NCBI RefSeq assembly: GCF_015235415.1
Contig: NZ_JADGLL010000016.1
Span: forward strand, 1-64,000
From: Microbacterium paludicola
Lineage (GTDB): Bacteria; Actinomycetota; Actinomycetes; Actinomycetales; Microbacteriaceae
Length of the DNA stretch: 64,000 nt
Direction: 5' to 3'
The notes under the pieces are model-generated. The model made no database searches. It saw only the letters and a list, made by a program, of their open reading frames with translations, and had not been told where the DNA came from. This document shows, one piece after another, positions 12,080 to 15,559 of this stretch. Positions within the stretch are counted from its first letter, which is position 1, and each line of letters starts with the position of its first letter. The position numbers were made by a program, and so were the translations under genes.

Positions 12080-12733
12080 TCAGAAGCCGCTGCTGTACGT
12101 GGCGATCATCACCACGCACACGCCCAGCAGCACCAGCGGCGCCGCGGCCGCGCTGATCAGCAGGCCCGTGCCGAGCGCGCGCGCCGGCGGCCAGAACAGC
12201 AGGCCGATGCCCGCGAGCAGCACAAGCAGCCAGAAGAGCCCGCCGCCGAAGGGGAAGCCTCCGAACCCACCGCTGAACCAGAGGAACCCGGCGCCCAGGA
12301 TGACGACGAGTCCGATGGCGAGACCGATCCAGACCCAGGCGCCGAACCGCAGCCCGCCGAGCTGCCGCGGCGGGCCGACCGGCGGTGCGCCATATCCGGG
12401 CGGTGGTCCGTACCCGGGCGGCGGTCCGTACCCGGGCGGCGGTCCGTACCCGGGTGGCGGCCCGTAGCCGGGGTGCGGCGGCTGCCCCGGGTACTGCCCC
12501 GGTGCCGCGGGCGGCCCGTACCCGGGCGGGTACCCCGGCCCATGCTGCCCCGGCCCCGGCGCCCCAGGCACCTGCTGCCCCGGCTGCGGTCCGGCCCCCG
12601 GCCCGGGCGCCCCTGGCGCCTGCGGTCCCGGGCCGGGCGCCGCCCCCGGCTGCGGCGGCATCCCACCGCCCGGTGGCGGCACCGGGCGTGCGGGATCGGG
12701 CTCCTGGCCCGGCTGCTCAGGCGTGCTGTTCAC
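12080..12733 (-). CDS. Pro/Gly-rich membrane protein with YGPPPG repeats
   Basis: 217 aa. Residues 1-122 are Pro, Gly and Gln rich, with five tandem GYGPPPG-type units encoded by an 18-bp repeat at about 12395-12475. Three transmembrane helices follow at about 129-152, 163-182 and 186-210. Such Pro-rich tails plus small membrane domains are common in Actinobacteria (DUF4190-like), function unknown. The start lies 17 nt inside the end of the Lgt-like gene, so it is translationally coupled as the last gene of the radical-SAM operon. Its start residues MNSTPE recur in the protein at 20190. Confidence 0.8.
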   Translation of the reverse strand: MNSTPEQPGQEPDPARPVPPPGGGMPPQPGAAPGPGPQAPGAPGPGAGPQPGQQVPGAPGPGQHGPGYPPGYGPPAAPGQYPGQPPHPGYGPPPGYGPPPGYGPPPGYGPPPGYGAPPVGPPRQLGGLRFGAWVWIGLAIGLVVILGAGFLWFSGGFGGFPFGGGLFWLLVLLAGIGLLFWPPARALGTGLLISAAAAPLVLLGVCVVMIATYSSGF

Positions 12734-13550
12734 GGGAAGCCGTCCTCTCTTGCTGCGACGGAAGCGCCGGCGCGGGTGCGGCGGCGCGGAAGCGGTCGGT
12801 GCGGATCATCCAGACGATCCGCGCGAACAGGAGGGGGAGGGTCGCCAGCAGGAACAGCTGCGGGCGCGTCAGCCCCATCCAGGCGATCTCGTTGCCGCGC
12901 ACGAACTCGACGAGGAAGCGGAACACCCCGTACGCGGCGATGTAGAGCGTGAGCGTCTCGCCGGGCGCGATCTGCCGGTGACGCAGCCAGAACCACAGCA
13001 GCGCGAAGGCGACCAGGTGGAAGGCGATCTCGTACACGAAGCTCGGATGCAGCGGCACCCCGGCGGCGGATCCGGTGTACGCGGCGGCGTCGGCGTCGAG
13101 CACGATGCCCCATCCGGATCCGGTCGGCGTTCCCGGCTTCTCGGTGAGGAGGCAGCCGATCCGGCCGATCGCCATCGCGAGCGCAACCGCGGGCGCGAAC
13201 AGGTCGCCGGTGCGGTACGGGTATCGCACGACGCGCTTGGCGACGTGCACGCCGAGCCACGCGCCCACGAGCGCCGACAGCATCGACGCGTTGCCGTAGG
13301 AGAGCTGCTCCATGAGGCTGAGGTTCTTCGTCGGATCGAGGTGCTGCGCCCACGTGCCGAGCCGCGCCAGGATGGACGCCCCCGCGAGCGAGCCGAGCAC
13401 GAGATACCAGATGCGGTGGTCGGTCACCCCGCGGCGGCGCTTCTCGACGAGGAACACGATTCCCGCCGCGAGCATCCCGAGCGCGACGAAGAACGAGTGC
13501 GTGTCGATGGGCGGAAGCCAGCGCACGAGGTCCTGCAGCGTCGGGAACAT
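12717..13550 (-). CDS. Lgt-like (prolipoprotein diacylglyceryl transferase family) membrane protein
   Basis: 277 aa with about seven transmembrane helices of the Lgt fold. It has GRIGCLLTEKPG where true Lgt has GRxGNFxNxExxG, so both Asn are replaced, plus HPSFVYE and FRFLVEFVRG. It therefore belongs to the Lgt superfamily but is probably not the housekeeping lipoprotein modifier; a diacylglyceryl or other lipid-moiety transferase is plausible. The ATG at 13550 is 1 nt from the stop of the two-helix protein, inside the radical-SAM operon. The tail (13 residues, QQERTASREQHA) is hydrophilic. Confidence 0.85.
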   Translation of the reverse strand: MFPTLQDLVRWLPPIDTHSFFVALGMLAAGIVFLVEKRRRGVTDHRIWYLVLGSLAGASILARLGTWAQHLDPTKNLSLMEQLSYGNASMLSALVGAWLGVHVAKRVVRYPYRTGDLFAPAVALAMAIGRIGCLLTEKPGTPTGSGWGIVLDADAAAYTGSAAGVPLHPSFVYEIAFHLVAFALLWFWLRHRQIAPGETLTLYIAAYGVFRFLVEFVRGNEIAWMGLTRPQLFLLATLPLLFARIVWMIRTDRFRAAAPAPALPSQQERTASREQHA

Positions 13551-13551
13551 G

Positions 13552-13866
13552 TCAGCCGCCGAAGACCCTGATCCACAGCAGCACCCAGAACGGGATCGCC
13601 GCAGCCGAGAGCGCGGCGATCACCGACAGGTACAGCAGCACAACGCGGGTGTCGCCGAGGCGGCACTTCGATCGCAGCAGCCCCGCGCGCCGCGCCCGCG
13701 CGTAGCCGGCGATCGCGACGCCGCTGAACACGAGCAGCGCGACGGGGCCGAACACGCAGGTGATGAGCGCGACGGTCGTGAAGACGCAGAGCTTCAGCGG
13801 ATCGAACGCGGGCACGGGATCGCCGACGCTCGCGTCGTAGCGATTGAGCCCCTCGTACGCGGTCAT
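13552..13866 (-). CDS. Small two-helix membrane protein
   Basis: 104 aa. Helices at about 26-54 and 76-100 flank a basic loop (ARARRAGLLRSKCRLGDTR). I do not recognise a family; some DUF-type neighbours of this radical SAM enzyme look alike. Start and stop overlap the upstream gene by ATGA (13863-13866), so the two are co-translated. The position between a lipid-type radical SAM enzyme and an Lgt-like transferase suggests a membrane partner or scaffold. Confidence 0.8.
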   Translation of the reverse strand: MTAYEGLNRYDASVGDPVPAFDPLKLCVFTTVALITCVFGPVALLVFSGVAIAGYARARRAGLLRSKCRLGDTRVVLLYLSVIAALSAAAIPFWVLLWIRVFGG

Positions 13867-15497
13867 GACGCCACCACCGGAAGCTGCACGCGCCCGCCCG
13901 TCTCGCGGACGTCGCTCATCCGCGCGGAGCGCTCGCGTGATCCGGTCGCCGTCGACAGGCGCGTGCGGCCGAGCGGCGCCCACGCCTGCACCGCGCAGAA
14001 CGGGGCGCACTGGTGGGCGTCGGTGGTCTCGTTGACGGTGGCGACGTGCACGCAGCACTGGGTGAGACGCTCCTCGATCATCGTGTTGATGTCCATGAAC
14101 GGCTTGATGGTGATCCGCTTCACGCGCTCGCCCATCATCCGACGAAGCCGTTGATGCTGGCCGGGAAGCTGCGACGCGGCGAGGGTCGCGAGCGTGCCGA
14201 TGCCGAGGTCGCAGCTGGCGCAGATGTCGCGCCAGATGTCGACCATCGACGGATGCGACAGCGACGACTGCTCGCTGAGCAGATCGAGCAGCGAGGTCTT
14301 CACCACCTCGCGGATCTTCTTGTTCACGCCCGAGTCGGCGATCCGGTTGGCGATCAGATCCGGCTCGAGCTCGAGGAACTCCTTGAGCCGGTCGTGCCCG
14401 ATCAGCCCGACGAGCGACTTCCACTCGCCCGCGTCGTCCTTCAGCAGGTAGCCGACCGAGCAGCAGTGCGGATGGCTGCACGGGAGCGCGGTGAGGTCGC
14501 GCCACGTGACGGTGTCGCCGGTCTGCGGCCCGAGCCTCGCCAGCACACCCGTGTGCGTCAGCCGGTCGTCCGGATCGATGCCGGCCGACCGCCCGGATCC
14601 GAACACCGGCTGGATCGTCACGCCGCCGACGAACGGCGTGTCCATCGCGCGGCGGATCACATCCCCGATCTCGTGGTCGTTCACGCCGAGCGCCGCGGTC
14701 ATGGTGAGCGTCGTGAAGACCCCAGCGGCCGACAGCCGCTCCAGCGCCCGCTCCTTGAAGCGCCGGATGTCGGCTCCCCGGTGATATGCCGACGCCTCCT
14801 TCGACTCGCCGTCGTACTGCAGGTAGATCTCCACGCGCTGCCGGTGCTTCCTCAGCACCTCGACGAAGGCGTCGTCCTGCGCGATCCGCAGTCCGTTCGA
14901 GTTGATCAGGATGCGCACCACCGGCCGGGCGACGAGGTGCTCCAGCAGCTGCTCGAGCCACGGGTACAGCGTCGGCTCGCCGCCCGAGAGCATCAGCACG
15001 TCGATGCGGTTGTTCTCGCGCGCGAGGCGGGCGTCGACCGATGCCAGCACCTCGGCCAGGGGAGCGACCGCGCTCGCCGCGGGGCTCGACTCGGCGAAGC
15101 ACGTGGGGCAGCGCAGGTTGCAGTGGTCGGTGATGTCCTCGAGCAGGATGCAGGTGTGCTGCGTCTGCATCGCGGGCAGGCCGTCGTCGTACGCCGACGG
15201 CACCGGCTTGAAGTTGCCGATCACGTCCGGCGTGTGCATCTTCGTCGGCGCGGTCCACTCCTCGAGGTACCGCAGGATCTCGGCCGACTCGTCGTACATC
15301 GTGCGCACGAGGCCGTGCTCGGGGCAGCCGCGCTCGAGCCAGATGGTGCCGTCGCGGTCGGCGAGCCAGCCGGACAGCCGCCGCACCTCGGCGAGCGGGC
15401 GATCCGGATCCTCCTCGTGGCAGCGCGGGCAGAACGCGTTGACGTAGCGATGGATCCGGTGGTCGCGAAGCGGCATCCCTGCGGTGGGCTGGCTCAT
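13863..15497 (-). CDS. Radical SAM enzyme of the Tes (tetraether lipid synthase)-like family
   Basis: 544 aa. An N-terminal Cys-bearing domain (CPRCHEE at residue 23, then DGTIWLERGCPEHG) precedes the radical SAM barrel, whose cluster motif is CNLRCPTC in ITDHCNLRCPTCFAES, with MLSGGEPTLYP as the SAM-binding GGE strand. The C-terminal part has many extra Cys (PCSHPHCCS, CASC, QCC, CAPFC) for auxiliary iron-sulfur clusters. The CP.C/CPEHG/CNLxCPxCFA pattern is that of MJ0619-type Tes enzymes, which make carbon-carbon bonds between lipid tails. The true substrate here is unknown. ATG 15497 is 7 nt behind TAGTCT (15510-15505): leaderless, first gene of a four-gene operon. Confidence 0.87.
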   Translation of the reverse strand: MSQPTAGMPLRDHRIHRYVNAFCPRCHEEDPDRPLAEVRRLSGWLADRDGTIWLERGCPEHGLVRTMYDESAEILRYLEEWTAPTKMHTPDVIGNFKPVPSAYDDGLPAMQTQHTCILLEDITDHCNLRCPTCFAESSPAASAVAPLAEVLASVDARLARENNRIDVLMLSGGEPTLYPWLEQLLEHLVARPVVRILINSNGLRIAQDDAFVEVLRKHRQRVEIYLQYDGESKEASAYHRGADIRRFKERALERLSAAGVFTTLTMTAALGVNDHEIGDVIRRAMDTPFVGGVTIQPVFGSGRSAGIDPDDRLTHTGVLARLGPQTGDTVTWRDLTALPCSHPHCCSVGYLLKDDAGEWKSLVGLIGHDRLKEFLELEPDLIANRIADSGVNKKIREVVKTSLLDLLSEQSSLSHPSMVDIWRDICASCDLGIGTLATLAASQLPGQHQRLRRMMGERVKRITIKPFMDINTMIEERLTQCCVHVATVNETTDAHQCAPFCAVQAWAPLGRTRLSTATGSRERSARMSDVRETGGRVQLPVVAS

Positions 15498-15559
15498 GGC
15501 GCTCAGACTAGGGGCACGGATGCCCGTTGGGCAGTCGGCCGTTCGGAGGGACGAGCGTG

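Follow-up and report, generated by a model that had tools for sequence, protein, structure and literature searches.

The window analyzed here, a stretch of 64,000 nucleotides from Microbacterium paludicola (contig NZ_JADGLL010000016.1, positions 1 to 64,000), carries a four-gene operon on the minus strand, from 15497 down to 12080, that belongs to a patchy, tightly linked gene module of Actinomycetota, among them soil bacteria and mycobacteria. Its genes encode, in order, a radical SAM enzyme with the predicted fold of the tetraether lipid synthase Tes, an optional two-helix membrane protein, an Lgt-like membrane protein in which two residues essential in Lgt are replaced, and a proline-rich (Pro-rich) membrane protein whose last helix ends at an invariant Gly-x-Cys. 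We tentatively propose that the module makes an unusual lipid attached to a protein. The folds of the parts are known. What is new, relative to the open-licence PMC literature that we searched, is their combination, together with the altered residues and the candidate acceptor; none of these was described there except for the paired replacements Y26H and N146C of MSMEG_5408, a protein of Mycobacterium smegmatis.

The genes are closely packed: the radical SAM gene (13863..15497, 544 aa) and the two-helix gene (13552..13866, 104 aa) join through an ATGA overlap, a 1-nt gap separates the latter from the Lgt-like gene (12717..13550, 277 aa), and the Lgt-like gene overlaps the GTG-initiated Pro-rich gene (12080..12733, 217 aa) by 17 nt. 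A sequence-only reading of the window had described one operon with these three junctions, as the gene coordinates bear out; the interval that it marked, 13552-15497, covers the first two genes, and the operon runs on to 12080. It had also assigned the genes a shared leaderless promoter, which agrees with comparison to related loci. A -10 box, TAGTCT (15505..15510, minus strand), lies 7 nt 5' of the radical SAM ATG, and among 17 loci with the same gene order, 15 have TANNNT 5-8 nt 5' of the ATG, against 0/17 when the position is slid by 10, 20, 30, or 40 nt. The two loci without TANNNT (L122 and L130) carry Shine-Dalgarno-like sequences, and the other 15 have none of the five sequences looked for. 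This comparison supports a leaderless start of the radical SAM gene. The ratio of nonsynonymous to synonymous substitution (dN/dS), taken against a single close relative (L119) for three of the genes, is ~0.17 for the radical SAM gene, 0.25 for the two-helix gene, and 0.23 for the Lgt-like gene. Because these ratios are low and the genes travel together, the operon is not a chance arrangement, and we regard the four-gene operon as confirmed.

The radical SAM and Lgt-like genes are rarely found apart. When 396 genomes of the order were searched with the Lgt-like protein as query, the 24 that matched were precisely those that carry the radical SAM gene, and in the mycobacterial genus (118 genomes, with cut-offs of 1e-20 for the Lgt-like and 1e-60 for the radical SAM protein) the Lgt-like gene is present in 33 genomes and the radical SAM gene in 31, all 31 being common to both. 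An Lgt-like gene without the radical SAM gene occurs in two mycobacterial genomes: G1016, a draft of 70% completeness, and G1091, which has a stop-containing, truncated remnant. Adjacency of the two genes by chance was considered and dropped on this co-occurrence in the order and in the mycobacterial genus. At the G1091 remnant (contig C79:9517-9888), the Lgt-like fragment contains a stop codon, and the search for the radical SAM gene gave nothing, which suggests that the module decays as a unit.

The same linkage is seen locus by locus. A first set of 47 loci contains the Lgt-like gene in 46, the Pro-rich gene in 41, and the two-helix gene in 40, the one locus without an Lgt-like match (L117) being a contig edge. 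A second, separate scan of named genomes found 433 stretches, spread over several actinobacterial orders, that encode a radical SAM relative, orthologous or not (tblastn, E 1e-3). The best 80 of these, ranked by a mycobacterial query so that mycobacteria weigh heavily, come from Mycobacterium/Mycolicibacterium, Nocardia, Nonomuraea, Microbispora, Planomonospora, Microtetraspora, Sphaerimonospora, and one Actinomycetes record, and two of them repeat records of the first set (L154 = L131 and L174 = L133). Among these 80, the Lgt-like and Pro-rich genes are each present in 79, with both misses at contig ends (L188 and L225), and the two-helix gene in 38. The expectation that the four genes would stay together in relatives therefore stands for the radical SAM, Lgt-like, and Pro-rich genes and falls for the two-helix gene, which is optional. 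Four gene orders are found: radical SAM, two-helix, Lgt-like, Pro-rich; Lgt-like, Pro-rich, radical SAM, two-helix; Lgt-like, radical SAM, two-helix, Pro-rich; and Pro-rich, Lgt-like, radical SAM, two-helix. Since the order varies among loci, the association has outlived rearrangement. Within 9 kb of the module, nothing recurs beyond the module genes themselves, the shadow frames of these genes, and a small number of clusters seen in 6 loci; the shadow open reading frames make this clustering rough.

The distribution of the module is patchy at every level sampled. Radical SAM orthologues are present in 15 of 99 genomes of the genus and in 24 of the 396 from the order; in the family, an initial sample of 150 genomes gave two orthologues, the other 27 matches being weak radical SAM hits; and in a sample of the phylum, 24 of 396 genomes matched at 1e-12, of which 10 were read as orthologues (at least 57% identity over the best piece), while the rest are a fragmentary match in G823 and distant relatives at ~27-37% identity. 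Two copies of the module are plasmid-borne (M. avium pS2b and M. branderi pJCM12687), which together with the patchy presence suggests that the module spreads horizontally. At two loci on mycobacterial plasmids (L151:7350-8992 and L152:8110-8995) there are two copies of the Pro-rich gene, with transposase genes close by, and at the first of these an antitoxin/RES-domain gene pair is found near the doubled gene.

The radical SAM protein matches PF04055 (Radical_SAM, 65.4 bits) and an HMPTM zinc ribbon (42.5 bits) in Pfam, and the cysteine pattern noted in the sequence-only reading (CP.C, CPEHG, and CNLRCPTCF) is present as FCPRC, CPEHG, and CNLRCPTCF. A sequence search of the PDB at E 0.01 finds a single relative, M. 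jannaschii Tes (7tol, E 2.9e-36), and the AlphaFold model of the protein (mean pLDDT 85.5) aligns with 7tom at Z 47.7 and a root-mean-square deviation (rmsd) of 4.4 over 462 of 498 residues, the next fold match outside 7tom and 7tol reaching only Z 19.4. The protein is thus predicted to have a full-length Tes fold, and by sequence it appears to lie outside Tes. Its top NCBIfam models are TrsS (NF045646, 195 bits with a cut-off of 490) and Tes (NF045702, 155.3 bits with a cut-off of 450), and both scores fall short of the cut-offs. Nine other actinobacterial Tes-like proteins, from twelve such loci, outscore it on both models (235-471 for TrsS, 227-331 for Tes), so the present clade is an outlier. 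In a phylogenetic tree, the radical SAM family forms a separate branch with 100/100 support and a stem of 3.5 changes per site, with MJ0619 Tes on the opposite side among Tes- and TrsS-like proteins. The tree holds one biochemically proven Tes and no bacterial membrane-spanning lipid synthase (Mss), is rooted for drawing only, and is flagged by the tree program for several long branches, long-branch joins, and odd composition, MJ0619 being among the flagged sequences. The earlier description of the enzyme as Tes-like thus holds for its fold and fails for its membership in the Tes clade.

The conserved residues divide in the same way. With Tes (GDGT-MAS; MJ0619, 7tol, 7tom), the family shares the rubredoxin-type CX2C..CX2H site and the radical SAM motif CX3CX2C (all seven positions in 124/124 aligned rows), the C-terminal cysteines aligned with MJ0619 C338, C455, C456, and C470 (invariant in the 124 rows, C338 by our own count), and Gln268 and Arg275 of the SAM pocket (43/43 rows). 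In contrast to Tes, the ligands of the N-terminal [4Fe-4S] cluster (C73, C77, C80, and a His) are gone: none of the four aligned columns contains a Cys in any of the 124 rows, the first holding V/I/P, the second R/D/Q/Y/H/N/K/E/A/S (His in 6 of 124), the third P/G, and the column of the His ligand Gln in 124/124. The position of Met439 is Lys (124/124), that of Tyr459 is Val (123/124), and Ser271 is replaced by Phe. Four additional cysteines are invariant in the family (Cys116, Cys340, Cys429, and Cys497), which suggests a rewired set of metal sites. At one locus of another phylum member (L137:8002-9846), the radical SAM protein is 615 aa long, and its match is broken into two pieces at query residue 355, where the protein seems to carry an insertion. 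The idea of a selenoprotein was dropped, since flags of one TGA at three loci fit a true stop beyond the conserved part in the extracted open reading frames.

One rival reading is tail-to-tail coupling, in which the radical SAM enzyme would join acyl chains into membrane-spanning or dicarboxylic lipids and the Lgt-like and Pro-rich proteins would move or hold lipid, with no protein-bound lipid formed. The Tes fold and the retained rubredoxin site, radical SAM cluster, and C-terminal cysteines are all consistent with it. Met439 and Tyr459, according to the excerpted text of the Tes structure paper, are conserved in 1,000 archaeal Tes homologues and yet dispensable, with M439A, Y459F, and Y459L active (PMC9433317). 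Because these residues can be lost from Tes itself, the present family may still carry out tail coupling or other radical chemistry on lipids, and only the claim of membership falls. Bacterial Mss is described, in the excerpt of a paper that treats it, as having a Tes-like architecture and making membrane-spanning lipids (PMC13274423). Against coupling stand the missing ligands of the N-terminal cluster, the separate long branch, the extra invariant cysteines, and a TrsS score (195) that exceeds the Tes score (155), both far under cut-off. The TrsS model describes a radical SAM (seleno)protein and gives our protein its best NCBIfam score; in contrast to TrsS, the extracted orthologue frames have no internal stop. 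The genomic partners also differ: an Lgt-like partner is not mentioned for Tes or Mss in the excerpts of the two papers (PMC9433317, PMC13274423), the latter of which describes Mss with Ger/PlsA, whereas the present module pairs its enzyme with the Lgt-like protein. On balance, we consider coupling rather unlikely as the function of the module. At two loci on haloarchaeal and Mycolicibacterium plasmids (L234:3007-5210 and L236:3902-6270), a distant Tes-like gene is followed directly by a methyltransferase gene and not by an Lgt-like gene.

The sequence-only reading had also raised ether-type lipids, which gained no support: PF09989, which we take to be a Ger/PlsA-type domain, has no match in this one genome, in a search that did not extend to PF01869, ElbD, or other ether routes. 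The Ger/PlsA domain is named as PF01869 in the excerpt of the paper that treats Mss (PMC13274423). Tetraethers and ether bonds have no direct support. The part of the earlier proposal that gained most is "an unusual lipid attached to a protein," because the fourth gene provides a candidate acceptor cysteine.

The Pro-rich and two-helix proteins have nothing above cut-off in Pfam, and tblastn finds the Pro-rich gene at only 6 loci besides the window. A profile of its helix part matches in 41 of the 47 first-set loci (19 of 25 among those not used as seeds) and in 79 of the 80 named loci, on which the view of the fourth gene as a chance neighbor was dropped; as the sequence-only reading had supposed, the protein belongs to the set, and it is a core part of the module. 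When 307 genomes of the order were searched, the profile gave 16 strong matches with E values of 9e-10 or lower, each in a different module genome, followed after a gap by 23 weaker matches (E 1e-5 to 1e-3, 21 to 27 bits), none of them in the 24 module genomes, which we read as noise; the number of module genomes in this sample is not shown, so the search gives no miss rate.

The protein begins with a Pro-rich segment (median 37% Pro in up to 60 residues N-terminal to the helices; 112 rows, lowest 7%), after which three helices are predicted. Across an alignment of 30 rows, the Gly and Cys of the final Gly-x-Cys are the only invariant residues, and in 120 rows the Cys is present in all and the Gly at -2 in 119, with 6-19 residues after the Cys. 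In the window, this is Cys206 (codon TGC at 12116..12118, minus strand; codon checked), the proposed acceptor. The last Arg or Lys precedes the Cys by 21 residues in 100 of the 120 rows, by 20 in 12, and by 25 in 8. An Arg, 20 residues without Arg or Lys, and then Gly-x-Cys is a layout that resembles the signal helix of a lipoprotein. By the positive-inside rule, we infer that the last helix begins in the cytosol and ends outside, which would place the Cys near the outer face, where Lgt acts on lipoproteins; on this placement the Pro-rich protein is the best candidate acceptor. Mean pairwise identity is 52% in the last helix and 26% in the remaining membrane part, with 75% for the radical SAM and 62% for the Lgt-like protein in the same pairs, and fast drift outside one short stretch would be the pattern expected of a recognized acceptor. 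A second, weaker Pro-rich copy (17.3 bits, without Gly-x-Cys) follows the first at L119:5528-6058, as if it were a duplicate freed to decay.

An invariant Gly-x-Cys in a fast-drifting small protein, encoded beside a radical enzyme at many loci, could also mean that the radical SAM enzyme modifies the Pro-rich protein itself, for example, by a cross-link at the Gly-x-Cys, with the Lgt-like protein acting to add or remove an ordinary lipid. Peptides are substrates of many radical SAM enzymes. However, neither a SPASM-type nor a peptide-binding domain appears in the Pfam scan, the fold is much closer to that of the lipid enzyme Tes than to any other, and the Cys apparently lies near the outer face whereas the enzyme looks soluble; we therefore hold modification of the Pro-rich protein to be unlikely.

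The Lgt-like protein matches PF01790 (LGT) at 99.9 bits (cut-off 24.9) and misses both NCBIfam equivalogs (TIGR00544, 59.1 versus 118.9; NF000778, 76.7 versus 334), and its AlphaFold model (pLDDT 89.9) aligns with E. coli Lgt (5azb) at Z 16.1 and rmsd 4.4 over 242 residues, the next match reaching Z 7.3. Its Lgt motif reads GRIGCLLTE, with both signature Asn replaced, as had been noted from the sequence. E. coli Lgt numbering here rests on alignment with the genome's own Lgt and on the residue positions of the E. coli protein. In comparison with Lgt, Tyr26 is replaced by His18 (codon CAC at 13497..13499) and Asn146 by Cys133 (codon TGC at 13152..13154; both codons checked, minus strand), each in 122/122 rows, and Asn149 by Thr in 120/122. 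The equivalents of Arg143, Glu151, Gly154, Tyr235, Arg239, Glu243, and Arg246 are kept in 122/122 rows, R130, G140, and R211 corresponding to the essential Arg143, Gly154, and Arg239; the residues with which Lgt binds phosphate are thus retained.

According to the excerpts of a 2026 paper, E. coli Lgt requires both Tyr26 and Asn146, and MSMEG_5408, the second Lgt homologue of M. smegmatis, carries Y26H and N146C and is presumed to have low Lgt activity (PMC13251419); our mapping of Tyr26 to His18 agrees with that description as excerpted. Because the replacements are invariant, rather than scattered as in decay, they point to a changed function of the Lgt-like protein; we suggest that they may form a Cys-His pair within the old Lgt cavity. 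Loss of His103 was considered as evidence against Lgt activity and dropped, since the genome's own Lgt also lacks His103; the residue is missing from Lgt of Actinobacteria, according to the same excerpts (PMC13251419). That the protein is merely an ordinary second lipoprotein transferase of low activity, beside a radical SAM enzyme with an unrelated and perhaps TrsS-like job, is suggested by MSMEG_5408 and by N146C in the Lgt of Leptospira interrogans (PMC13251419, in excerpt) but is improbable, because near-perfect co-occurrence with the radical SAM gene and replacements in 122/122 rows do not fit it and the genome already has a separate, ordinary Lgt (225.6 bits).

The two-helix protein has conserved motifs, DPLRLC and S(K/R)C.L.DTR, with Cys27 and Cys68 each present in 78/78 rows, and a conserved basic loop. 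Its gene is absent genome-wide from 5/5 tested module genomes that have no local copy, and its status as a core part was dropped on that absence.

Taking together the gene set, its linkage and co-occurrence, the predicted folds, and the conserved residues, we infer substrates, an order of steps, an acceptor cysteine, a topology, and a product as follows. A cytosolic radical SAM enzyme of Tes architecture would act on the acyl chain of a membrane lipid by activating a C-H bond that is unreactive. The Lgt-like enzyme would hold a phosphatidylglycerol-type lipid through its kept Arg130, Glu137, Tyr207, Arg211, Glu215, and Arg218 and, with its active site rebuilt around His18 and Cys133, would pass this lipid on to the Pro-rich Gly-x-Cys. 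In genomes that have the two-helix protein, its basic loop probably serves to dock the soluble radical enzyme at the membrane. The outcome would be an unusual lipid that a small, dedicated membrane protein bears or otherwise handles. We think it possible, and hold only tentatively, that a lipid bound by the Lgt-like protein is joined in this way to the Cys of that motif and that the radical SAM enzyme modifies its chain either before this step or after it.

Several observations weigh against this transfer to the Pro-rich protein. The canonical lipobox has the consensus L-[AS]-[GA]-C, from which Gly-x-Cys departs, and the Cys lies near the C-terminus of the protein rather than the N-terminus. 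Six first-set loci (L098, L117, and L134-L137) have no Pro-rich match at E 1e-6, and only L117 is an evident contig edge. The Cys could be a structural, metal, or redox site, and the conservation of the last helix could just as well mark a surface for docking. The predicted topology follows from the positive-inside rule alone, and a cytosolic radical enzyme combined with an outward-facing transfer site would need either a flip of the lipid or a particular order of steps. Finally, the altered Lgt-like enzyme may perform no diacylglyceryl transfer, since Tyr26 and Asn146 are both essential in E. coli Lgt, as the excerpts state (PMC13251419).

A more specific version of protein lipidation, in which an Lgt descendant with a His-Cys pair at the Tyr26 and Asn146 positions loads the Gly-x-Cys in the C-terminal helix of a dedicated membrane protein with lipid and a Tes-fold radical enzyme makes new C-C or C-S bonds in that lipid, would amount to a new system of lipid biogenesis; we consider it doubtful. 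If true, ordinary actinobacteria and mycobacteria would make lipid of a protein-anchored, chain-modified, or membrane-spanning kind. The Tes structure paper, in its excerpted part, leaves open the role of Tes-like radical SAM proteins in bacteria not known for biphytanyl chains (PMC9433317). One Tes-like clade with fixed partners narrows the possible roles and names a testable acceptor residue, and an orphan type of Lgt paralogue (Y26H, N146C), known from M. smegmatis, gains a context. If the proposed lipid attachment is true, widely cultured actinobacteria would make a new type of lipid or lipoprotein, which would alter the reading of Tes-like genes as markers of tetraethers.

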